From Beroe forskalii (Eukaryota; Ctenophora; Nuda; Beroida; Beroidae): a stretch of 64,000 nt of DNA. A model generated the notes under the pieces. That model made no database searches. It was not told where the DNA came from and saw only the letters and a program-made list of their open reading frames with translations. Shown one piece after another: positions 11,782-49,493 of this stretch (position 1 is the first letter of the stretch; every line of letters starts with the position of its first letter). Made by a program: the position numbers and the translations under genes. The DNA is taken from positions 186,001 through 250,000 of the forward strand of contig WFMF01000240.1 of the NCBI GenBank assembly GCA_011033025.1, read 5' to 3'.

Positions 11782-14700
11782 ATGGGTGAGAACTCCAAGG
11801 ACGGCAGTAACCAGCCCGCAACATGGGAGATAGTGTACGGGGGCACGTGGTCAAACGTGTTTCAGGAGAAGTTACGGGAGCGGAACACTCGCGAGATAGA
11901 GCCTTACCGAGACTTCTTCAATAACTTTGAGTATGGTTAGGGACTTCTTCAATAACTGTTAGTGTAGTAAGAGACTTCTTCAATTCTTCAATAACTGTTA
12001 GTGTTGTTAAGAACTTCTTCAATAACCGTGAGTGTTCAGTGTAGTAAAATTGTAACTGTGAATGTAGTAAGGGACTTGCGAGAATCGCACGGTTTGGGCG
12101 CGCAATTGACGGTAGGCCAGAATACCAGGTTTGGCGTCTGGTGATACACGCTTGTCTATCAGCTTCTAAAATGATATATATTGTTGAGAATACATTAAAA
12201 ACTTCATGATACTGGTTTATGATGGACAATTGTTTTTGCTTATTCTCCCTATTGATAACTTCAATATCAATTTCTTCAAATTGTTGCAAAGATGATTTAA
12301 ATGGAAATCCTCATCAGTTGCTGTGCTTTACGGGACGCTTGATCAGTACTGTGGGAAGATTAAAAAGCTTGACTATGAGAACCTGAAGAGACAAGAAGAC
12401 ATAAAAACCATCATCAACGACCCTGGACAAAGTTTGACGGAGAATGACAAGAACTTCCTTTCCTTGCAACAGGTACATGGTTCATGTATATAGTTTATAC
12501 ACGTGTTACATACATTCATTGTATACATTGTATACATTGTATACATTGTATACATTGTATACATTGTATACATTGTATACATTTTTCGAAAGAAATCCCC
12601 ATATTTTTCGTTCCCAAAAAATTTCAAAAAAATGACGTCATCATCATACGTTAACATGTGTAATATTCCCACAAATATACCGAAATTTCGATCCCCGGAA
12701 TTACAGTATCGTTCCATGTTAATTTAATTCGTAAGGTAGGTTTCACTTTGAGTTCATTAATTCGGAATTCACATCGCACTTCAGGAAAACATCCAGCTGT
12801 TATTAATACCCCTCACTTCAGGAAAACATCCAGTTGCTGCGCCAGAACGAGACGACCCAGAAGGAGATGCTCCGTGTGCAGATGAGACTGAGGGAGGTCG
12901 CCAAGAAGGACATGCAGATTGTGGAGTTGGAGGAGAGGTGCCACAGACTCGACCAGGAGAACGGTACGGTGTCATGTTATTGATATATAGGTGCCACAGA
13001 CTCGACCAGGAGAACGGTACGGTGTCATTTTATTGATGTAGGTGCCACAGGCTCGACCAACAGATCGGTACGGTGTCATTTTATTGATATAGATGCCACA
13101 GACTCGACCAGGAGAACGGTACGGTGTCATTTTATTGATATAGGTGCCACAGACTCGACCAGGAGAACGGTACGGTGTCATTTTATTGATATAGGTGCCA
13201 CAGACTCGACCAGGAGAACGGTACGGTGTCATTTTATTGATATAGGTGCCACAGACTCGACCAGGAGAACGGTACGGTGTCATTTTATTGATATAGGTGC
13301 CACAGACTCGACCAGGAGAACGGTACGGTGTCATTTTATTGATATAGGTGCCACAGACTCGACCAGCAGAACGGTACGGTGTCATTTTATTGATATAGGT
13401 GCCACAGACTCGACCAGCAGAACGGTACGGTGTCATTTTATTGATATAGGTGCCACATACTCGACCAGCGGACGGTACGGTGTCATTTTATTGATATAGG
13501 TGCCACAGACTCGGCCAGGAGAACGGTACGGTGTCATTTTATTGATATAGGTGCCACAGACTCGACCAGGAGGACGGTACGGTGTCATTTTATTGATATA
13601 GATGCCACAGACTCGACCAGGATAACGGTACGGTGTCGTTTTATTGATATAGGCTCCACAGACTCGACCAGGAGAACGGTACGGTGTCATTTTATTGATA
13701 TAGGTGCCACAGACTCGACCAGGATAACGGTACGGTGTCATTTTATTGATATAGGTGCCACAGACTCGACCAGGAGAACGGTACGGTGTTATTTTATTGA
13801 TATAGGTGCCACAGACTCGACCAGAAGAACGGTACGGTGTCATTTTATTGATATAGGTGCCACAGACTCGACCAGGAGAACGGTACGGTGTCATTTTATT
13901 GATATAGGTGCCACAGACCAGGAGAACGGTACGGTGTCATTTTATTGATATAGGTGCCACAGACTCGACCAGGAGAACGGTACGGTGTCATTTCATTGAT
14001 ATAGGTGCCACAGACTCGACCAGAACGGTACGGTGTCATTTTATTGATATAGGTGCCACAGACTCGACCAGGAGAACGGTACGGTGTCATTTTATTGATA
14101 TAGGTGCCACAGACTCGACCAGCAGAACGGTACGGTGTCATTTTATTGATATAGGTGCCACAGACTCGACCAGGAGAACGGTACGGTGTCATTTTATTGA
14201 TATAGGTGCCACAGACTCGACCAGGAGAACGGTACGGTGTCATTTTATTGATATAGGTGCCACAGACTCGACCAGGAGAACGGTACGGTGTCATTTTATT
14301 GATATAGGTGCCACAGACTCGACCAGGAGAACGGTACGGTGTCATTTTATTGATATAGGTGCCACATACTCGACCAGCGGACGGTACGGTGTCATTTTAT
14401 TGATATAGGTGCCACAGACTCGACCAGCAGAACGGTACGGTGTCAGATACGGTGTCATTTCTTGATAGACTGCCACAGACCACCAGGATAACGGTACGGT
14501 GTCCCACAGACTCGACCAGGAGAACGGTACGGTGTCATTTTATTGATATAGGTGCCACAGACTCGACCAGGAGAACGGTACGGTGTCATTTTATTGATAT
14601 AGGTGCCACAGACTCGACCAGCAGAACGGTACGGTGTCATTTTATTGATATAGGTGCCACAGACTCGACCAGGAGAACGGTACGGTGTCATTTTTATTGA

Positions 14701-17700
14701 TACGGAGAACGGTACGGTGTCATTTTATTGTGTCGGTACGGTGTCATTTTATTGATATAGGTGCCACAGACTCGACCAGGAGAACGGTACGGTGGTGTCA
14801 TTTTATTGATATAGGTGCCATACAGACTCTCGACCAGGAGAACGGTACGGTGTCATTTTATTGATATAGGTGCCACAGACTCGACCAGGAGAACGGTACG
14901 GTGTCATTTTATTGATATAGGTGCCACAGACTCGACCAGGAGAACGGTACGGTGTCATTTTATTGATATAGGTGCCACAGACTCGACCAGGAGAACGGTA
15001 CGGTGTCATTTTATTGATATAGGTGCCACAGACTCGACCAGGAGAACGGTACGGTGTCATTTTATTGATATAGGTGCCACAGACTCGACCAGGAGAACGG
15101 TACGGTGTCATTTTATTGATATAGGTGCCACAGACTCGACCAGGAGAACGGTACGGTGTCATTTTATTGATATAGGTGCCACAGACTCGACCAGGAGAAC
15201 GGTACGGTGTCATTTTAGTATTGAGGTGCGACCAGGAGACTCATTTTTATTGATATAGCAGAACGGTGTCATTTATGGTGTCATTTTATTGATATAGGTG
15301 CCACAGACTCGACCAGGAGAACGGTACGGTGTCATTTTATTGATATAGGTGCCACAGACTCGACCAGGAGAACGGTACGGTGTCATTTTATTGATATAGG
15401 TGCCACAGACTCGACCAGGAGAACGGTACGGTGTCATTTTATTGATATAGGTGCTACAGACTCGACCAGCAGAACGGTACGGTGTCATTTTATTGATATA
15501 GGTGCCACAGACTCGACCAGGAGAACGGTACGGTGTCATTTTATTGATATAGGTGCCACAGACTCGACCAGGAGAACGGTACGGTGTCATTTTATTGATA
15601 TAGGTGCCACAGACTCGACCAGGAGAACGGTACGGTGTCATTTTATTGATATAGGTGCCACAGACTCGACCAGGAGAACGGTACGGTGTCATTTTATTGA
15701 TATAGGTGCCACAGACTCGACCAGGAGAACGGTACGGTGTCATTTTATTGATATAGGTGCCACAGACTCCTTAGGTGTCATTTTATTGATATAGGTGCCA
15801 CAGACTCGACCAGTAGAACGGTACGGTGTCATTTTATTGATATAGGTGCCACAGACTCGACCAGGGTACGGTGTCATTTTATTGATATAGGTGCCACAGA
15901 CTCGACCAGGAGAACGGTACGGTGTCATTTTATTGATATAGGTGCCACAGACTCGACCAGGAGAACGGTACGGTGTCATTTTATTGATATAGGTGCCACA
16001 GACTCGACCAGGAGAACGGTACGGTGTCATTTTATTGATATAGGTGCCACAGACTCGACCAGGAGAACGGTACGGTGTCATTTTATTGATATAGGTGCCA
16101 CAGACTCGACCAGGAGAACGGTACGGTGTCATTTTATTGATATAGGTGCACAGACTCGACCAGGGAGAACGGTACGGTGTCATTTATTGATATAGGTGAC
16201 TCGATAAGGAGAACGGTACGGTGTCATTTTATTGATATAGTGCTACCCTGAACTCGACCAGACAAAACTTGTCGGTGTCATTTTATTGATATAGGTGCCA
16301 CAGACTCGACCAGAACGGTACGGTGTCATTTTATTGATAGGTTACAGACTCGACCAGGAGAACGGTACGGTGTCATTTTATTGATATAGGTGCCACAGAC
16401 TCGACCAGGAGAACGGTACGGTGTCATTTTATTGATATAGGTGCCACAGACTCGACCAGGAGAACGGTACGGTGTCATTTTATTGATATAGGTGCCACAG
16501 ACTCGACCAGGAGAACGGTACGGTGTCATTTTATTGATATAGGTGCCACAGACTCGACCAGGGAGAACGGTACGGTGTCATTTTATTGATATAGGTGCCA
16601 CAGACTCGACCAGGAGAACGGTACGGTGTCATTTTATTGATATAGGTGCCACAGACTCGACCAGGAGAACGGTACGGTGTCATTTTATTGATATAGGTGC
16701 CACAGACTCGACCAGGAGAACGGTACGGTGTCATTTTATTGATATAGGTTGATATAGGTGTCATTTTACAGACTCGACCAGGAGAACGGTACGGTGTCAT
16801 TTTATTGATATAGGTGCCACAGACTCGACCAGGAGAACGGTACGGTGTCATTTTATTGATATAGGTGCACAGACTCGACCAGGAGAACGGTACGGTGTCA
16901 TTTTATTGATATAGGTGCCACAGACTCGACCAGGAGAACGGTACGGTGTCATTTTATTGATATAGGTGCCACAGACTCGACCAGGAGAACGGTACGGTGT
17001 CATTTTATTGATATAGGTGCCACAGACTCGACCAGGAGAACGGTACGGTGTCATTTTATTGATACATTTTACTGACCAGGAGAACGGCCGGTGTCATTTT
17101 ATTGATATACTCGACCAGCTGAACGGTACGGTGTCATTTTATTGGTATAGGTGCCACAGACCCGACCAGGAGAACGGTACGGTGTCATTTTATTGATATA
17201 GGTGCCACAGACTCGACCAGTAGAACGGTACGGTGTCACTTCATTGATATAAAATACAAACTGACAACACTATAAGACTATACTCCTAATTACAGGAATT
17301 CTAAAAGACGAACTGACAAAACTACTCCTAATTACAGGTATACTAAAAGACGAACTGACAACACTTTACTCCTAATTTCAGGTATACTAAAAGACGAACT
17401 GACAGCACCACTCCTAATTACAGGTATACTAAAAGACGAACTGACGACCCTGCACCTAATGTACAAGAAGCTAGAAGAGGACAACAGGAAGCTGGGCTTT
17501 GAGAACACCCAGATGTTGGAGAAGATCCTCCTTCATAAGAAAGAGGAAGTGGACATGGTGAACATGCACAACGAAACCATGAAGAAGTGAGTTGATCCTT
17601 ACCCTGACTCTGACCCTAACCCTAAACCATGAAGAAGTGAGTTGATCCTTACTTTAACCTTGACCCAGCCCTTATCAATTTATCATTTTTACAGAAAATT

Positions 17701-29387: not shown

Positions 29388-29878
29388 AAACTCAAACTGA
29401 CTGTATAATTCCAGGTATTTTGGCGGACACTGGGTTTCCTCTCAAACTGACTCTTTAATTCCAGGTATTTTGGCGGACACTGGGTTTCCTCTCAAACTGA
29501 CTCTTTAATTCCAGGTATTTTGGTGGACACTGGGTTTCCTCTCAAACTGACTCTTTAATTCCAGGTATTTTGGTGGACACTGGGTTTATAACTCAAACTG
29601 ACTTTATTTCAGGTATTTTGGCGGACACTGGGTTTCCTCTCAAACTGACTTTATTTCAGGTATTTTGGCGGACACTGGGTTTCCTCTCAAACTGACTTTA
29701 TTTCAGGTATTTTGGCGGACACTGGGTTTCCTCTCAAACTGACTTTATTTCAGGTATTTTGGCGGACACTGGGTTTCCTCTCAAACTGACTTTATTCCAG
29801 GTATTTTGGCGGACACTGGGTTTCCTCTCAAACTGACTGTATAATTCCAGGTATTTTGGCGGACACTGGGTTTCCTCA
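29388..29878. repeat. Acceptor-junction minisatellite (10 copies) before an exon
   Basis: Ten copies of a 47-50 bp unit made of CTCAAACTGACT…CCAG|GTATTTTGGCGGACACTGGG. They fall in two subfamilies (TTTAATTCCAG and TTTATTTCAG acceptors). The tenth copy continues into coding sequence at 29851. Earlier copies run into TAA before the next unit when read in the exon frame. Confidence 0.92.
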
Positions 29879-32800
29879 GGCACAGGATGTGCTCTCCTCT
29901 TCCCTTGCTATGGATAATGACGATGACGAATACCCAGCCTTGCAAGCCGTTAATGGGGCTCTAAACGTGAGTAGAACTGCTATGTTAAGGGGGGGGTGCA
30001 ACTCCCAGGCCCGTAGCCAGGATTTTTTTCCGGGAGGGGCCCTTGCGCCGCGAGCGAAGCGAGCAAGCTGTGGCAGGGGTTTGGGGTGCAGCCCCCTGCG
30101 GGGTCCAGGGGCGAGCCCCTGCCAGGGGGTTAGGGAGCGGAGCCCCCAAAAAATTTTAGGGAAATTAGGTTGCTGCAGGATGATTTCTACAATAAAGAAA
30201 TGTACAGGAAATGTACAGGACGATATTTGTCAAAATTAGAGCATCGAAAAAGTATACAATCAAATATAAACGACCGATAACAGTCAAAATAACTTATTCT
30301 CACTGTTATAGCTAGTTTAATCATACTAGCAAAACCCGCGACCTCCGGTCGGGTGCTCGATTGGGTTGCGAGTGATGTCAGACCGGACAGACTGGGTCCT
30401 GCTAGAAAGCAGTACCTGAAACATACTGTGAATTTGCTGATGAGACAGTGCTTTACAATTCATAAAGTCTAGTTAACCAGTGTCAAGGATCTAATTTCAC
30501 GTCTTCTGATACATTACGGAGTGGTGTCAGACCGGACAGACGCCAGACAAACATAATTACATAGATAAATATATATATGATGAAGAATTACTAGTACGTT
30601 TTGGAACTAACTGCAAGACAGTGCTCGACAAGTTTCCGAGGAAACGAGGAGCGAAATACAAAGTACCAAGTAAAACGATCGGGTTCCAACTCAAAGTTTC
30701 ATGTACTTACGTACAATCTTCAGGGATGTTCCCAACTGGGCAATAATTACGGAAATGACATAATGGTATTACTCCTTTATAAAATCACACCAAACCCAAT
30801 TTCTCATAAAAACTAAAATCTAAGACATGGAAGTATTTTGGAACGAATTATGGCAGTTGCTGTGTCGTAAATTTAATTAACTTAAAACGGTCGTTCAAAT
30901 TATAAAATTATTTGTCAGATTAAAATCAATGAAAATACCAAAACACTGCTTCTCAAGCTGAAAATGACGACAAAATTCGTAAAAAATAATAAAATTTAAT
31001 AAAATAAAATTTATAGTGATGGTACGGAAGATTTATTAAATTTAAGTAAAAATTTCCTTCTGTGCCTACATTTAGAAACAATTTCCGTACGTTTATTAAT
31101 ACACGGGTTTTTGAGAATAAAAAGTTTCTCTGTTAAACACAAGTTACAGTGCTTTGAGCCCGGACGGTGGCTCTTGCATTTCGCAACTGTTTTCCATTTA
31201 ATTTCGTATTGAATGTTCTTACTTTTTAATTCCCATATTAATTTCGATAATTCCGTCTCGTTTTTGTATTTCTCAGTCCTGAATGATTGTCTGTGATTGT
31301 TCCACCGCGTTTTAAAGTCCTTCTCGGCAAGTCCGAAGTACGTGTGTGATCCCCGTCTCAGTCAACACGTCCGCCTGGTAGATGGACGAGGTCGTCAGAC
31401 AGTGTCCCTGCAGTGGACAATTTGGTTTGTCCCTGCAGTTACACTGTCTCACGGCCTCATCCTGTCCTTCGGTCTCCAGGACGGACTTGTTGTGATTCTT
31501 GAGGATCACGCCCATACTTGGCATACATGAGTAGCTGAGCTTGACCGTGTTTCTGTTGAGGATCCTATGGAAGCGATGGTCTTTGGGGAAGTGTCTGTCA
31601 AGGGCGCTGAAAAACTTCCTTCCGATGTCTGTTCTGACGCTGGAGCTGTAAGGGGGGTTAAACCAAACGATCTTCCTTGTACGTTTCCTTTTCCTTCTAG
31701 GAGGTTGGGTGCTTTCGTAGGATAGGGGCTCAGTGTAGCCACTGGCTTCCAGAGCCACTTCGTACTCCTGCTTGGATTCGTTGAAAAGGGCCTCTGTGCT
31801 GGAGATGCTGCTAAGTCTCTTGGAGATCATGCTAGGGATATTCTTGATGATGCTTGGGGGATGGTTAGACTTAGCATTGATGTACAAAGGAGTATCGTTC
31901 GGCTTCTTGTAGGGTTTGTAGGACTTGTCCTTCAGGGAGAGCACCACATCCAAGTAGTTGACTGAGTCATCATGTATTTCTACAGTGATTCTCAGCCCTT
32001 CCTGTTGGAACATTTGGTGCAACTTTCTTCTGATTCTGTCAAGTTGGGTCCGTCGGCACGTTCGATTATTGCTAATCCATCGTCCCTATATAGACCCAAG
32101 CTTTCCAGTGGGATGATTGTGCTGAGTTTATTCAGCAGGTAAACGCCAACAAGCTCGGAAGTTTCAGCGCCGTCCAGGCTGCCCATCGTCACATCAAAGT
32201 TGACATCCGATTTTTTGATCCAGCACTGCCCGCCGTTGAAAAGGAAAGACTTCTTCGTGAGTTTGATGATTTCCTTCTCGTCAACTGACAGCTCTGTTAC
32301 TGATTCGGCGAATGATAGAGCTCGGTCTAGAAGTCCTGACGAGATTGAGGGATAGAATTCCACAATGTCAAACTTTATGAACCGGGCTTTTTTCATGTTC
32401 TTTATGGTGCCAAACCAGTCCAAAACCTCGGATGTACTTTTCCATTGGTTGACCCCAGTGTTGGCACGGATTTCAAGCACAACGCGTTCAAGAATGCTCT
32501 TGCTGACTTGTCCCATGCTGGACTTCGCGGGGTTGATCAGACGACATTTAGGGTTCGAGAAGAAATTGTCTTTGTGGTCTTTAAAGCTAACAAAACACTG
32601 ATTTTCAGAGTATTGTTCTATTTTGTCGTCGATGTCCAGTTTTGAAGCTAGTGTCTTTGTTTCTTCATTGACTCTGCTCTGTTCTGCTGAATTTCCTAGT
32701 TTGTAGTCTTTAGTGATGCTGTTGAGGACGGTTTCTTTATACTTTTCTGGAGCAATCTGGTAAAGGTTTGTAGTCTTATCAGCTTCAACCACAACATTTT

Positions 32801-35800
32801 TACCAGATTTCAAAGATTCCAGGTCTTTGTCCATCTTTTTCTGAAATTCGTTTTTGGAGTCTGAAAATTTGATATCGCTAATGATCTTTACGAATTTTGT
32901 CGTCATTTTCAGCTTGAGAAGCAGTGTTTTGGTATTTTCATTGATTTTAATCTGACAAATAATTTTATAATTTGAACGACCGTTTTAAGTTAATTAAATT
33001 TACGACACAGCAACTGCCATAATTCGTTCCAAAATACTTCCCATGTCTTAGATTTTAGTTTTTATGAGAAATTGGGTTTGGTGTGATTTTATAAAGGAGT
33101 AATACCATTATGTCATTTCCGTAATTATTGCCCAGTTGGGAACATCCCTGAAGATTGTACGTAAGTACATGAAACTTTGAGTTGGAACCCGATCGTTTTA
33201 CTTGGTACTTTGTATGATGAAGAATTATATATAGTAAGATTCAATAAGATTAAACTAGGAAACTGCCACTATTTAACCAAGCCAAAGTATAAAATTATGA
33301 TTATCAGTAAAAAAACTTTTATTTTAACTATTTTTATGAAATGGTACCTTTTCTTCCGAGGGGGGATGCAGCCCCCCTAGCCCCCCCCTCTGTCTACGGG
33401 CCTGGCAACCCCCGTAATTCGCCCCACTGCACGAGGTGTTCCCCAGGTGATTGTGCCTAGATGTGCCCCAAGTGTGTCTTTGTGCCCTAGGTGTGTATCG
33501 GAAGATTACCGAGTTACCAAAGTAAAAATTTTTTCTGGAATGGTGCTATTTTTGTATGGGAATTTTGGGCCTTTTATAAAATGGCACCACTTTCTAACTT
33601 CGCTATACCCCTTAATGGATACGAAAATTGGCAAACGGGAGATTTATTTTTCGGGGTTTATGGGTTTTTCGGTCCCCCCTCCCCCGTCTGTTTGCTAAGG
33701 CCCTCAATTGACTATCCTCAGTCCCCTTTCCGCTGCTCCAATTGATGACAAGAACTCAATCATTCGAAATTATAGCAAAAGTAATAAATATGATAAATAT
33801 AACCAAAGAAAATAAAACGAACTCAACCGTTCTGAGTTTGCTGTAACATTGACTATAGTCTTTCCTCCTTTTCTTCCTTTCTCATCTCCCTCCTCTCCTG
33901 TTCGTGTCCTCTTCTCTTTCCACAATCTCTCCATCGCTCCCCGTGGTTCCCTCCATAATCCTACCCCTCTCTGCACATGATCCATCAAATTCTTCCTTAT
34001 TCTGTATGAGATCCTGAAGTTCCTCCATCTCTGACCACTCTCCATCTCGCTCCCTCTGAACTTCTCGCCTGTACTCGTCCACCAATCAAATAACACCACC
34101 ATCGTCCACAGACTCTCCCTACATGACATTCCTACAAATAACCTGTACCTCTGTAACTCCCTCCATTCCTCCATCCCCTCCTTTCTCTCTACCTCCTTCT
34201 CTACCGCTCGGCTCCGTCCACAATCTCACCTCTCTAACCATATGATCCATTAAGTTCTTCAAGTAGGGTATTCTAAAGTTCTTCACCTTCCACCTCCGAC
34301 CCTTCTCGCTTTCGTCTCCTCTCTCCCTGAACTTTTCCCACACCATCTCAAAGTCCCACATACTTGTGAACAAGTCGAAAAACACCACAACTTCCCAAAG
34401 ACTCTCCCTACATGACATTCCTCAAATAACCTCTGTAACTCCCTCCATTCCTCCATCTCCTCCTTTCCCTCTACCTCCATCTCTTCTATCATCCTCTGCA
34501 TCTCTGCTCCTCACTCTCTTGCCTCCTTCTGCGATCTCTCCACTGGTCCTTCCTCCTCAGCCTCTTCTCCCCTCCCTGCTTGTCATCTTCTTGCGTGACA
34601 TCGCCACCAACAATTCTTCCAAAGCGTTCATTTCTGAATTAATTCATGTTAGATTCTATATAACCGATACAAGTATACAGTATATTTTTCCAAGAATTAC
34701 TCATCAGATCTTACTCAAGACGATTAAATCATGTTATTTGAAAGCTACTAGACAATCAATCTTGTGTCAACGATAGTCTTGATCATTCGAACAACACCAC
34801 CTAACTAACAGTATTCGCTATCTATACTAGAACGATTGATTGGCTACTTACAATAAATTGCATTCTAAATGAGAACAATGCCCTGTTAATAATCTCCAAA
34901 CGCTACCGAATACAACTGAACTTATCAAACTGATGTTCCAGGAACATTGTTCCTTACTCACTTTTATCACTCTTAGTCTTAAGTACCTTTTCTTTGTGTT
35001 AAAATACCAGCTGCCCTTTTAATCTTATTGTTAAAAATTCTACTACCCCCTGCGTCGAATGCCCTCTTGTTATCTACCTATTTCCTTTTGAATTACCATC
35101 TTATCTATTTCCTTTTTAAAATTACCATCTTATCATCTTCTGTCCTGCTCTCCTATCCCCACCTGTAACTCATTTTCTGTTGTAATTGCTACTTCTCTTT
35201 TAAACTTTATCAAGTACCCATTTAAAGCTGCCATCCATCCTATCAGAATCATCAACCCGGTGCCTCCAAATACTAATAGAATTATCCAACCGGTGCCTGT
35301 ACCTTCCCCCTCCTTACAATTTGTGATTAATGGAGGAAACATTTCCTCCATTGACGTATTGTTTTTCTTGAAAATCTGTGTAAATGTCTGTGACATTATT
35401 CACATCTACCAAATCCAAATCTATCTCACCTTCAAATCAAATCAAATTTGGCTGCACAACCGTGGTTTCCAATACCGTCTGCCCCACACCTGTGTTGCAG
35501 AAACCGCTAAGACTCTGAGCACATACAAAGGCGTTCCTAAGGTCTAAGGACTTCAGGATGACAGCAGAAATGTGTTTTAGCATCGTAACTTTGAAAAGTT
35601 CTATTTGTGGCCAAAATATCTGAATTGAGTCTCGTAACTGTCGTAAAATGCTAAAATGATCATTTTGCTTATAAATTCTTATAAAGAGGTTAGAGGCGTA
35701 TACATTTCATTTCTCTCCTATATGAGAAAAAATTGATGGGCGCTGAATCATTTTCAAACTTTTCTCATTAAGTAGTAAGAGATAGATAATAACATAAAAC

Positions 35801-39904: not shown

Positions 39905-41285
39905 AAACCCGGGATATTCTGATAGTGAGGGGTTTACTAAACCCCTGGGTTTTCTGGTAGCGAGGGGTTCACTAAACCCCTGAGTTTTCTGGTAGGGAGG
40001 GGTTTACTAAACCCCTGGGTTTTCTGGTAGCGAGGGGTTCACTAAACCCCTGAGTTTTCTGGTAGCGAGGGGTTTACTAAACCCCTGGGTTTTCTGGTAG
40101 CGAGGGGTTTACTAAACCCCTGGGTTTTCTGGTAGCGAGGGGTTTACTAAACCCCTGGGTTTTCTGGTAGCGAGGGGTTTACTAAACCCCTGGGTTTTCT
40201 GGTAGGGAGGGGTTTACTAAACCCCTGGGTTTTCTGGTAGCGAGAGGTTTACTAAACCCCTGGGTTTTCTAGTAGCGAGGGGTTTACTAAACCCCTGGGT
40301 TTTCTGGTAGCGAGGGGTTTACTAAACCCCTGGGTTTTCTGGTAGCGAGGGGTTTACTAGACCCCTGGGTTTTCTGGTAGCGAGGGGTTTACTAAACCCC
40401 TTGGTTTTCTGGTAGCGAGGGGTTTACTAAACCCCTGGGTTTTCTGGTAGCGAGGGGTTTACTAAACCCCTGGGTTTTCTGGTAGCGAGGGGTTTACTAA
40501 ACCCCTGGGTTTTCTGGTACCGAGGGGTTTACTAAACCCCTGGGTTTTCTGGTAGCGAGGGGTTTACTAAACCCCTGGGTTTTCTGGTAGCGAGGGTTTA
40601 CTTAACCCCTGGGTTTTCTGGTAGCGAGGGGTTTACTAAACCCCTGGGTTTTTCTGGTAGGGAGGGGTTTACTAAACCCTGGGTTTTCTGGTAGCGAGGG
40701 GTTTACTAAACCCCTGGGTTTTCTGGTAGTGAGGGGTTTACTAAACCCCTGGGTTTTCTGGTAAGGGGTTTACTAAACCCCTGGGTTTTCTGGTAGCGAG
40801 GGGTTTACTAAACCCCTGGGTTTTCTGGTAGCGAGGGGTTTACTTAACCCCTGGGTTTTCTGGTAGCGAGGGGTTTACTAAACCCCTGGGTTTTCTGGTA
40901 GCGAGGGGTTTACTAAACCCCTGGGTTTTCTGGTAGCGAGGGGTTTACTAAACCCCTGGGTTTTCTGGTAGCGAGGGGTTTACTAAACCCCTGGGTTTTC
41001 TGGTAGCGAGGGGTTTACTAAACCCCTGGGTTCTGACATGATATTATGTGGTTTTTCTGGTAGCGAGGTTCCCTGGGTTTAATGTATAACTTAAACCCCT
41101 GGGTTTCTGGTAGCGAGGGGTTTACTAAATATTTAATAATGTGATGTTTACTAAACCCCTCGCATCCAAAGCGTTTCTGAACAATCCAGAGGCAGATTTT
41201 ATTTAAAAATCTTTGAAGTGATTTGGAAATATGATTCACTGAATATTTACTAAACCCTGGGCTTTTCTGGTAGAGGGGTTTCACT
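39905..41285. repeat. 35-bp satellite of hairpin units (GGGGTTTACTAAACCCC)
   Basis: More than 30 tandem copies of a 35-bp unit, each with the palindrome GGGGTTTA-C-TAAACCCC and a linker TGGGTTTTCTGGTAGCGA. The first copies alternate TTTACTAA/TTCACTAA and GGGTTTT/GAGTTTT; the central ones are homogeneous. From about 41030 units decay and are interrupted by non-repeat DNA. The 88-residue minus-strand frame over the end is an artefact. Confidence 0.93.
41175..41225. repeat. Duplicated block CCAGAGGCAGATTTTATTTA (second copy at 41589-41640)
   Basis: About 50 bp (…AAAATCTTTGAAGTG.TTTGG) occurs twice about 410 bp apart in the decayed flank of the 35-bp satellite. Confidence 0.65.
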
Positions 41286-45099: not shown

Positions 45100-46415
45100 T
45101 TACGATTCGGCGAATGATAGAGTCGGTCTAGAAGTCCTGACGAGATTGAGGATAGAATTTCACAATGTCAAACTTTATGAAACCAGGACTTTTCATGTTC
45201 TTTATGGTGCCAAACCAGTTCAAAACCTCGATGTACTTTTCCATTGGTTGACCCCGTGTTGGCACGGTTTCAAGCACAACGCGTTCAAGAATGCTCTTGC
45301 TGACTTGTCCCATGCTGGACTTCATGAGGTTGATCAGACGACATTTAGGGTTGGAGAAGAAATTGTCTTTGTGGTCTTAAAGCTAACAAAACACTGATTT
45401 TCAGTATTGTTCTATTTTGTCGTCGATGTCCAGTTTTGAAGCTAGTGTCTTTTGTTTCTTCATTGACTCTGCTCTGTTCTGCTGAATTTCCTAGTTTGTA
45501 GTCTTTAGTGATGCTGTTGAGGACGGTTTCCTTATACTTTTCTGGAGCAATCTGGTAAAGGTTTGTAGTCTTATCAGCTTCAACCACAACATTTTTACCA
45601 GATTTCAAAGATTCCAGGTCTTTGTCCATCTTTTCTGAAATTCGTTTTGGAGTCTGAAAATTTGATATCGCTAATGATCTTGTAGATGTCGTTTCAAAAA
45701 TTTGAAAGGGCAGGGTTTTGAGGGGCGTCTTGTGAGATTTTAGGCCAAAATTTTTGAGTAACAGGGCTCCATCCTCTTCATCTTCACTTTCCAAATTTTG
45801 CCGTTTTCGACCAAAACACTTTCCATCTGACTCTCCGAATGAAGCTTTCAGTCTGAGATATCAGTGTCTTTAGATAAACATTATGCTTTGGGATGGGTAT
45901 GTTCTTCAGGCTGTATCCCAAATTACATCTCCGTAATTCTGCCATGTGCTTTACTTTGCTGCGCTTAGTATCAAAGTGCTCTCACTGATCGGAGCTAATA
46001 CTAGTACGTTTTGGAACTAACTGCAAGACAGTGCTCGACAAGTTTCCGAGGAAACGAGGAGCGAAATACAAAGTACCAAGTAAAACGATCGGGTTCCAAC
46101 TCAAAGTTTCATGTACTTACGTACAATCTTCAGGGATGTTCCCAACTGGGCAATAATTACGGAAATGACATAATGGTATTACTCCTTTATAAAATCACAC
46201 CAAACCCAATTTCTCATAAAAACTAAAATCTAAGACATGGGAAGTATTTTGGAACGAATTATGGCAGTTGCTGTGTCGTAAATTTAATTAACTTAAAACG
46301 GTCGTTCAATTTATAAAATTATTTGTCAGATTAAAATCAATGAAAATACCAAAACACTGCTTCTCAAGCTGAAAATGACGACAAAATTCGTAAAAAATAA
46401 TAAAATTTAATAAAA
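45100..46415 (-). mobile_element. Penelope-like copy 3: 5' portion only, inverted against copy 2
   Basis: Reads on the minus strand from the long repeat at 46415-46006 through the start codon region (complement of GCACATGGCAG near 45945) into the coding sequence, and stops around 45100 in the RT core. It has many single-base losses in short runs relative to copies 1 and 2 (for example near 45160, 45235 and 45400), so no long frame survives. It mirrors 46419-47640. Confidence 0.8.
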
Positions 46416-46417
46416 TA

Positions 46418-49246
46418 TGAACGACCGTTTTAAGTTAATTAAATTTACGACACAGCAACTGCCATAATTCGTTCCAAAATACTTCCCATGTCTTAGATTT
46501 TAGTTTTTATGAGAAATTGGGTTTGGTGTGATTTTATAAAGGAGTAATACCATTATGTCATTTCCGTAATTATTGCCCAGTTGGGAACATCCCTGAAGAT
46601 TGTACGTCAGTGCATGGGACTTTGAGTTGGAACCCGATCGTTTTACTTGGTACTTTGTATTTCGCTCCTCGTTTCCTCGGAAACTTGTCGAGCACTGTCT
46701 TGCAGTTAGTTCCAAAACGTACTAGTATTAGCTCCGATCAGTCGTAGAGCACTTTGATACTAAGCGCAGCAAAGTAAAGCACATGGCAGAATTACGGAGA
46801 TGTAATTTGGGATACAGCCTGAAGAACATACCCATCCCAAAGCATAATGCTTATCTAAAGACACTGATATCTCAGACTGAAAGCTTCATTCGGAGAGTCA
46901 GATGGAAAGTGTTTTGGTTCGAAAACGGCAAAAATTTGGAAAGTGAAGATGAAGAGGATGGAGCTCCTGTTACTCAAAATTTTGGCCTAAAATCTCACAA
47001 GACGCCCCCTCAAAACCCCGCCCTTTCAAATTTCGAAAACGACATCTACAAGATCATTAGCGATATCAAATTTTCAGACTCCAAAAACGAATTTCAGAAA
47101 AAGATGGACAAAGACCTGGAATCTTTGAAATCTGGTAAAAATGTTGTGGTTGAAGCTGATAAGACTACAAACCTTTACCAGATTGCTCCAGAAAAGTATA
47201 AGGAAACCGTCCTCAACAGCATCACTAAAGACTACAAACTAGGAAATTCAGCAGAACAGAGCAGAGTCAATGAAGAAACAAAGACACTAGCTTCAAAACT
47301 GGACATCGACGACAAAATAGAACAATACTCTGAAAATCAGTGTTTTGTTAGCTTTAAAGACCACAAAGACAATTTCTTCTCCAACCCTAAATGTCGTCTG
47401 ATCAACCCCGCGAAGTCCAGCATGGGACAAGTCAGCAAGAGCATTCTTGAACGCGTTGTGCTTGAAATCCGTGCCAACACGGGGGTCAACCAATGGAAAA
47501 GTACATCCGAGGTTTTGAACTGGTTTGGCACCATAAAGAACATGAAAAAAGCCCGGTTCATAAAGTTTGACATTGTGGAATTCTATCCCTCAATCTCGTC
47601 AGGACTTCTAGACCGAGCTCTATCATTCGCCGAATCAGTAACAGAGCTGTCAGTTGACGAGAAGGAAATCATCAAACTCACGAAGAAGTCTTTCCTTTTC
47701 AACGGCGGGCAGTGCTGGATCAAAAAATCGGATGTCAACTTTGATGTGACGATGGGCAGCCTGGACGGCGCTGAAACTTCCGAGCTTGTTGGCGTTTACC
47801 TGCTGAATAAACTCAGCACAATCATCCCACTGGAAAGCTTGGGTCTATATAGGGACGATGGATTAGCAATAATCGAACGTGCCGACGGACCCAAGCTTGA
47901 CAGAATCAGGAAGAAGTTGCACCAAATGTTCCAACAGGAAGGGCTGAGAATCACTGTAGAAATACATGATGACTCAGTCAACTACTTGGATGTGGTGCTC
48001 TCCCTGAAGGACAAGTCCTACAAACCCTACAAGAAGCCGAACGATACTCCTTTGTACATCAATGCTAAGTCTAACCATCCCCCAAGCATCATCAAGAATA
48101 TCCCTAGCATGATCTCCAAGAGACTTAGCAGCATCTCCAGCACAGAGGCCCTTTTCAACGAATCCAAGCAGGAGTACGAAGTGGCTCTGGAAGCCAGTGG
48201 CTACACTGAGCCCCTATCCTACGAAAGCACCCAACCTCCTAGAAGGAAAAGGAAACGTACAAGGAAGATCGTTTGGTTTAACCCCCCTTATAGCTCCAGC
48301 GTCAGAACAGACATCGGAAGGAAGTTTTTCAGCGCCCTCGACAGACACTTCCCCAAAGACCATCGCTTCCATAGGATCCTCAACAGAAACACGGTCAAGC
48401 TCAGCTACTCATGTATGCCAAGTATGGGCGTGATCCTCAAGAATCACAACAAGTCCGTCCTGGAGACCGAAGGACAGGATGAGGCCGTGAGACAGTGTAA
48501 CTGCAGGGACAAACCAAATTGTCCACTGCAGGGACACTGTCTGACGACCTCGTCCATCTACCAGGCGGACGTGTTGACTGAGGACGGGGGATCACACACG
48601 TACTTCGGACTTGCCGAGAAGGACTTTAAAACGCGGTGGAACAATCATAGGCAATCATTTAGGACTGAGAAATATAAAAACGAGACGGAATTATCGAAAT
48701 TAATATGGGAATTAAAAAGTAAGAACATTCAATACGAAATTAAATGGAAAACAGTTGCGAAATGTAAGAGCTACCGTCCGGGCTCAAAGCACTGTAACTT
48801 GTGTTTAACAGAGAAACTTTTTATTCTCAAAAACCCGTGTATTAATAAACGTACGGAAATTGTTTCTAAATGTAGGCACAGAAGGAAATTTTTACTTAAA
48901 TTTAATAAATCTTCCGTACCATCACTATAAATTTTATTTTATTAAATTTTATTATTTTTTACGAATTTTGTCGTCATTTTCAGCTTGAGAAGCAGTGTTT
49001 TGGTATTTTCATTGATTTTAATCTGACAAATAATTTTATAAATTGAACGACCGTTTTAAGTTAATTAAATTTACGACACAGCAACTGCCATAATTCGTTC
49101 CAAAATACTTCCCATGTCTTAGATTTTAGTTTTTATGAGAAATTGGGTTTGGTGTGATTTTATAAAGGAGTAATACCATTATGTCATTTCCGTAATTATT
49201 GCCCAGTTGGGAACCTGTCTTGCAGTTAGTTCCAAAACGTACTAGT
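46418..49246 (+). mobile_element. Penelope-like retroelement copy 2, with intact ORF and long repeats
   Basis: The 5' repeat (46418-46735) lacks the first roughly 100 bp present in the other copies. The ORF follows at 46783-48930. The 3' repeat (about 48935-49246) is in the same orientation as the 5' one, as in Penelope elements with LTR-like repeats. The 3' repeat has an internal deletion, joining GTTGGGAAC directly to CTGTCTTGCAG. It ends ACTAGTA and abuts a TATG microsatellite, suggesting insertion into or slippage at TATG. Confidence 0.85.
46783..48930 (+). CDS. Penelope-like reverse transcriptase with C-terminal GIY-YIG endonuclease
   Basis: 715 residues, uninterrupted. RT domain about residues 120-480: VVVEADKTTNLYQI (fingers), FKDHKDNF…CRLINPAKS, motif A FDIVEFYPSIS (about 262-272), and the YxDD box in GLYRDDGLAI (about 354-363), with TMGS before it. 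A basic stretch (RRKRKRTRK) near 488 is followed by a Cys/His knuckle CNCRDKPNCPLQGHC (about 573-587). The C-terminal GIY-YIG nuclease is recognised by HTYFGLAEKDFKTRWNNH, ELSKLIWELK and CNLCLTEKLFI, including the conserved Arg and Glu. This order (RT then GIY-YIG) is that of canonical Penelope-like elements, which copy RNA primed from a nicked target. Start chosen at the first Met of the intact frame, just after the 5' repeat. Sole intact copy here and probably recently active. Confidence 0.9.
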   Translation: MAELRRCNLGYSLKNIPIPKHNAYLKTLISQTESFIRRVRWKVFWFENGKNLESEDEEDGAPVTQNFGLKSHKTPPQNPALSNFENDIYKIISDIKFSDSKNEFQKKMDKDLESLKSGKNVVVEADKTTNLYQIAPEKYKETVLNSITKDYKLGNSAEQSRVNEETKTLASKLDIDDKIEQYSENQCFVSFKDHKDNFFSNPKCRLINPAKSSMGQVSKSILERVVLEIRANTGVNQWKSTSEVLNWFGTIKNMKKARFIKFDIVEFYPSISSGLLDRALSFAESVTELSVDEKEIIKLTKKSFLFNGGQCWIKKSDVNFDVTMGSLDGAETSELVGVYLLNKLSTIIPLESLGLYRDDGLAIIERADGPKLDRIRKKLHQMFQQEGLRITVEIHDDSVNYLDVVLSLKDKSYKPYKKPNDTPLYINAKSNHPPSIIKNIPSMISKRLSSISSTEALFNESKQEYEVALEASGYTEPLSYESTQPPRRKRKRTRKIVWFNPPYSSSVRTDIGRKFFSALDRHFPKDHRFHRILNRNTVKLSYSCMPSMGVILKNHNKSVLETEGQDEAVRQCNCRDKPNCPLQGHCLTTSSIYQADVLTEDGGSHTYFGLAEKDFKTRWNNHRQSFRTEKYKNETELSKLIWELKSKNIQYEIKWKTVAKCKSYRPGSKHCNLCLTEKLFILKNPCINKRTEIVSKCRHRRKFLLKFNKSSVPSL

Positions 49247-49493
49247 ATGTATGTATGTATGTATGTATGTTTGTATGTATGTATGTATGTATGTATGTAT
49301 GTATGTATGTATGTATGTATGTATGTATGTATGTATGTATGTATGTATGTATGTATGTATGTATGTATGTATGTATGTATGTATGTATGTATGTATGTAT
49401 GTATGTATGTATGTATGTATGTATGTATGTATGTATGCATGTATGTATGTATGCATGTATGTATGTATGTATGTATGTATGTATGTATGTATG
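49244..49493. repeat. (TATG)n microsatellite at the 3' end of the Penelope-like element
   Basis: About 60 copies of TATG, with rare TTTG and CATG variants. Open in several frames on both strands; these are not genes. Confidence 0.97.

Follow-up and report, generated by a model that had tools for sequence, protein, structure and literature searches.

Intron 3 of the autophagy gene ATG16L1 in the ctenophore Beroe forskalii appears to be composed almost wholly of repeats of its own two ends. In the window analysed here, 64,000 nucleotides (nt) of the assembly GCA_011033025.1 (contig WFMF01000240.1, positions 186,001 to 250,000, forward strand; positions below count from its first letter), a long tandem array built from the end of exon 3 and the start of the intron is adjoined by a shorter one built from the end of the intron and the start of exon 4, and together they make up nearly the whole intron (Table 1). 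Very probably, this is a two-sided 'mirage', as boundary minisatellites have been called in amphioxus: minisatellites that arose by short tandem duplications across the intron's own 5' and 3' splice boundaries and were then amplified and homogenised. How introns are born and how they lengthen is a long-standing question, and boundary minisatellites make one proposed mechanism visible at work.

Two boundary arrays fill intron 3

The donor-side array was delimited by Tandem Repeats Finder (TRF; period 51, span 12936-17251), and a wrap-around alignment resolved it, after a 2-nt lead, into 86 units, 58 of which are exactly 51 nt long. The consensus, GTGCCACAGACTCGACCAGGAGAACG/GTACGGTGTCATTTTATTGATATAG (a slash marks a splice or unit border), is matched exactly by 38 units, and 45 distinct unit sequences occur; the first four and the last five units are all variant, and variants are found inside the array too. 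A first-pass annotation of the window, made from the letters alone, had described a highly homogeneous 51-base-pair (bp) array with this unit anatomy at this place, and our parse agrees. Its count of about 80 miniature exon/intron cassettes holds as an approximate copy number, but these are cassettes at the level of sequence only, because the 25-nt gaps between them are shorter than known animal introns.

The array holds the donor motif GGTACGG 82 times, with 81 of these sites lying beyond the true donor, and GATATAG 76 times. Exact cassettes of AG, 26 nt and GT number 47 with exon 3's own copy and thus 46 within the intron; with looser matching the counts are 62 and 61. At each unit joint, intronic GATATA runs into exonic GGTGCC, the two sharing about 1 nt as read from the flanks, and it is this fusion that creates an AG resembling an acceptor. 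The AG/GT noted at the unit borders by the annotation is therefore present, but it forms at the joint and is not a duplicated intronic acceptor. Several units carry ragged insertions and deletions (indels; near 14461, 14705, 15218, 16241 and 17068), so that assembly may have altered the exact count of units; the indels reported by TRF rise in the 5' to 3' direction from 1% (12936-14445) to 5% (14504-15769) and 8% (15774-17251).

What the annotation missed is the acceptor-side array that completes the intron. Its copies hold the intron 3 acceptor and the first 22 nt of exon 4, with acceptor motifs at 17287, 17329, 17373 and 17415 (spacing 42, 44 and 42 nt), the last being the exon 4 acceptor itself. 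They adjoin the donor array directly, with degraded unit-like material from 17252 ahead of them. When every base of intron 3 was tested for membership in an 8-mer of the two boundary units, 4,292 bases (96%) fell inside and 168 outside; the longest uncovered run was 11 nt, and hence no unique sequence of any length was detected in the intron. The other ten introns of the gene measure 139 to 1,813 nt. The third copy of the exon 4 acceptor, if used, would add an in-frame insert of 42 nt (17382-17423) without a stop, corresponding to 14 residues in the coiled coil.

Table 1. Boundary-derived arrays and duplicated splice boundaries in ATG16L1 and elsewhere on the contig (positions in the window unless a locus is named).
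Feature	Position	Strand	Description	Basis
Intron 3	12964..17423	+	4,460 nt	8-mers of the two boundary units
Donor-boundary array	12936..17251	+	86 units (most of 51 bp) made of the final 26 nt of exon 3 and the first 25 nt of intron 3	TRF and unit-by-unit parse
Acceptor-boundary array	17277..17445	+	4 copies of TACTCCTAATTACAG/GTATACTAAAAGACGAACTGAC	
ATG16L1 exon 3	12822..12963	+	supplies the exonic part of the unit with its last 26 nt (12938-12963)	match to Mnemiopsis P0002 at C293:198813-198971
ATG16L1 exon 4	17424..17586	+	Pfam ATG16 match	match to P0002 at C293:203420-203590
Exon 3 acceptor and exon start	12777..12840	+	two copies at a spacing of 37 nt, CACTTCAG/GAAAACATCCAG	
Exon 4 end and donor	17572..17652	+	two copies at a spacing of 50 nt, ACCATGAAGAA/GTGAGTTGATCCTTAC	
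Exon 1 end and donor region	11909..12040	+	four copies of about GACTTCTTCAATAACT/GTKAGT	
47-bp array, 10 copies	29391..29877	+	acceptor-like sequence and exon-like start, TTCCAG/GTATTTTGGCGGACACTGGGTTTCCT; leads into open frame of a gene	
42-bp array, 14 copies	L014:7801-8379		acceptor-like, same contig as the window; runs into coding-like frame	

The gene itself is ATG16L1 and the exon its third, as the annotation had proposed: a 12-exon chain joins in one open frame through to the stop, and for 8 of these exons there are matches to the Mnemiopsis protein P0002 that follow one another in order along the contig (best 82% identity). The WD40 part is 81% identical to Mnemiopsis. Exon 4 matches Pfam ATG16 with an E-value of 2.3e-6 and 28.4 bits, under the curated cut-off of 33.7; a Pfam search with exon 3 alone gave no match, and a PDB search with exon 4 found nothing. 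No second copy or haplotype of ATG16L1 was found in the assembly, since the remaining matches of P0002 there lie at 39% identity or less. The assembly's mitochondrial COX1 is 100% identical over 507 residues to that of Beroe forskalii. A cephalochordate origin, which the likeness to mirages had suggested, was rejected on the ATG16L (81% to Mnemiopsis) and COX1 identities.

Neither a repeat dispersed through the genome nor a hairpin-prone unit emerged as the source of the array. A two-unit query against the whole assembly matched no other locus, in a search that scores the best candidates only and skips very common words; within that scope, the homologous array elsewhere in the genome that the annotation had named as a refutation did not appear, and the dispersed-repeat candidate was rejected. 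The unit folds no better than shuffled sequences (z-scores 0.50, -0.21 and 1.55), so hairpin-driven expansion is not needed. An Rfam scan of the window returned no RNA at the gathering score.

Splicing and coding consequences

With 12963 joined to 17424, the 12-exon chain stays open and the junction reads DQENGILKDEL. Across the same junction, Mnemiopsis P0002 reads EQENGVLRDEF, and the proteins P0003 and P0004 of two close relatives read EQEAGVLKGEN and EQETGVLKDEN, all without an insertion, in animals that may themselves lack the array. If exon 3 were read through into the repeat, translation would end within the first unit at an in-frame TGA (12981), and the frame arithmetic of the annotation is correct: one or two 26-nt inclusions lead to a stop, and three restore the frame. 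The open spliced frame, the uninterrupted orthologous peptides and these stops together make the outermost sites the likely ones; most likely, the spliceosome would use 12963/12964 and 17423/17424 and excise the two arrays in one piece. Use of a decoy donor would do damage on account of the TGA, and selection should consequently maintain the first donor; in other respects the repeat would be tolerated, since it would be spliced out entirely. With some 80 donors that are almost identical, intron 3 offers a simple test of how the spliceosome chooses the one it uses.

Could some units nonetheless be real 26-nt micro-exons or recursive splice sites, with the array working in splicing through its AG/GT borders? 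The intron does hold 46 exact cassettes. The interior of exon 3 has GAGAG/GTGCC where the unit has ATATAG/GTGCC, so that a splice from there to any exact cassette, and on to exon 4, would leave the messenger RNA (mRNA) unchanged, and three plain inclusions would restore the frame. However, judged by eye, neither the border donor GTGCCA nor the acceptor TTGATATAG looks like a good splice site, and because this donor is weak we make no claim that the internal site is used. One or two plain inclusions would run into a stop, the gaps fall below known animal intron sizes, and micro-exon inclusion, which the annotation had raised, finds no support in the orthologous proteins, which run straight across from exon 3 to exon 4. 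We regard a splicing role for the units as very unlikely.

Origin of the intron

From the observed anatomy of the arrays we infer the following history. Short tandem duplications across the 5' and 3' splice boundaries of intron 3 would have started both minisatellites, and amplification and homogenisation by unequal exchange or slippage would then have turned a probably short ancestral intron into 4,460 nt of its own boundary sequence. Many identical units flanked by variant ends are what is expected of unequal exchange or slippage within an array. For the initial duplication step, mechanisms such as the fill-in of paired nicks are conjecture.

Intron 3 is not alone in having its boundaries duplicated. 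Counting a junction as duplicated when a copy matching it at 20/24 or better lies no farther than 220 nt away, 5 of the 22 ATG16L1 junctions qualify, compared with 118 of 4,589 control positions taken from this gene with the 51-bp array left aside; a separate control count gave 0.8% of 600 gene positions. Duplicated copies lie at the exon 3 acceptor, the exon 4 donor and the exon 1 donor region (Table 1). In the last of these, the exon-adjacent copy (11926-11938) reads AATAACT/TTGAGT and lacks the GT, the downstream copies having GTTAGT or GTGAGT, and read-through past the end of exon 1 meets a TAG at 11938. Either this exon end reflects an error or an allele, or an in-frame donor 9 nt downstream (TATG/GTTAGG) may be used instead.

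Several points weigh against the history proposed above. The short ancestral intron is itself inferred. Copy number, splicing and instability of the array are judged here from the assembled sequence, and the ragged indel units in its 3' two thirds may be assembly noise. The five duplicated junctions all sit in one gene and are thus not independent; 10.5% of 600 random window positions, many of them inside the 51-bp array, also pass the local-copy test; and no enrichment at junctions was seen elsewhere on the contig.

Two rival explanations were weighed. If the array were mostly an assembly expansion or a misassembly of a few true copies, the ragged units and the rise in TRF indels towards the 3' side would be accounted for, and the assembly holds a single copy of the locus. 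Yet the 86 units comprise 45 distinct sequences with scattered substitutions, other minisatellites abound on the contig (a close local copy exists for 8.6% of positions), and neighbouring boundaries of the same gene are duplicated too, all of which make an artefact of this kind unlikely, even if none of them excludes a wrong unit count. The other alternative, that splice junctions as such are hot spots of tandem duplication in this genome, draws on the five duplicated junctions of ATG16L1 and strikes us as highly improbable. Among the junctions of other genes in 244 kilobases (kb) of the contig, only 2 of 51 have a close copy, one of them picked for its array, against 5.1% of 2,040 intron controls, and 20 of 178 exon-edge zones were flagged against 16.6% of 3,000 random zones; with no enrichment elsewhere on the contig, a general hot spot is not supported. 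This census covers 46 exons picked from 89 non-repetitive candidates, one (at 29 kb) because of its array, and its splice sites were called automatically with a matrix of ATG16L1's own sites, so that single calls may be wrong. ABC-transporter loci, considered for a further sample independent of these, were left out of the count: the frames of L029-L037 are long, unbroken and possibly bacterial, and L038 and L039 have repeats near the match edge, none of which was seen straddling a junction. A fair reading is that exons 1-4 of ATG16L1 form a local cluster in a genome region where tandem duplications arise widely, and that some of those crossing splice boundaries survive.

Relation to known systems

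Boundary minisatellites are already known from amphioxus. The available text of the two reports describes 'mirages' in Adh3, troponin C, the globins BflGb6 and BflGb9 and PGBD5, on either side of the boundary, with copy numbers of 2 to 7 for the globins and PGBD5 and with allele length differences; globin reverse transcription-polymerase chain reaction and Adh3 data indicate normal splicing, and intron gain from mirages has been proposed (PMC3087553, PMC3902484). The Beroe forskalii repeats share three structural traits with them. A single tandem unit holds an exon end and the adjoining intron of a real gene; its copies carry AG and GT splice signals (82 GGTACGG, 76 GATATAG and 46 exact intronic cassettes); and a concerted interior (38 of 86 units identical) meets diverged ends (the first four and last five units). 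The differences from those descriptions are the ctenophore host, which lies outside the cephalochordate range described for mirages (host range not being a structural trait), the 86 units against 2 to 7, and the amplification of both boundaries to nearly the whole intron. A ctenophore case with far more copies than in these descriptions suggests that mirage formation is no peculiarity of lancelets.

The Rogers model, in which introns are gained through tandem duplication across AGGT, has been put forward for fish and mammal cases (via PMC3087553) and for a potato case (PMC4974935). As in that model, AG/GT unit borders and interchangeable copies could give a new exon or intron with the protein unchanged. 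Unlike it, the Beroe duplication straddles an existing boundary inside an existing intron, and no new intron is shown; the AGGT route to a new intron that the first-pass annotation had invoked therefore does not apply as such, since a unit that spans an existing exon-intron boundary is not in itself a Rogers-type new intron within an exon. Large tandem arrays inside introns are also known from earthworm metallothionein and from CeRep25B of C. elegans (PMC12783039, PMC4039745), where the accessible descriptions do not mention boundary-derived units.

A limited search of open papers found no report of boundary minisatellites in ctenophores, the published descriptions found being those from amphioxus, and in the part of the Beroe ovata genome paper that was available the word 'intron' is absent. 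Within the limits of that search, three things look new: the number of copies, an intron built from both sides, and the occurrence in this phylum.

We would further entertain, as a tentative possibility, that ctenophores run a boundary-duplication process like that of cephalochordates, able to rebuild a whole intron, and that ATG16L1 is in a primed state for intron gain. Given the internal AG/GT of exon 3 and the 46 exact cassettes, a single weak site, once strengthened, would divide intron 3 in two by a 26-nt exon and leave the protein as it is, and some cassettes may already be used at a low level. Should this be true, intron gain at this place could be neutral and observed while under way, with intron 3 providing a silent route to a new exon.

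Other features of the window and the assembly

Two further arrays on the contig, at 29391-29877 and L014:7801-8379, look like acceptor arrays of other genes, judging from their acceptor-like units; the gene frame beside the first gave no Pfam match. A candidate donor array at L015:126-385 was dropped, no coding exon being evident there.

Upstream of RAD21, a DUF6940 domain is matched at 1754-2215 (E-value 2e-46). The reading frames at 31011-32984 and 45345-48930 resemble Penelope-like retroelements, and one of the two is open over 732 codons. A 35-bp minisatellite of 32 copies with an inner palindrome (GGGGTTTACTAAACCCC) and 96% matches lies at 39917-41032, and a GTAT microsatellite of 62 copies at 49245-49493. 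Elsewhere in the assembly, the loci L029-L037 (contigs C3, C726, C694, C702, C777, C484 and C122) match ABC transporters in uninterrupted frames of 309 to 1,683 codons, and from these long frames the assembly may be bacterial in part. At L021:5754-6326 (30-bp units) and L023:7268-8426 (33-42 bp units), long repeats stand in frames that are open and coding-like, and these possibly encode repeat proteins.

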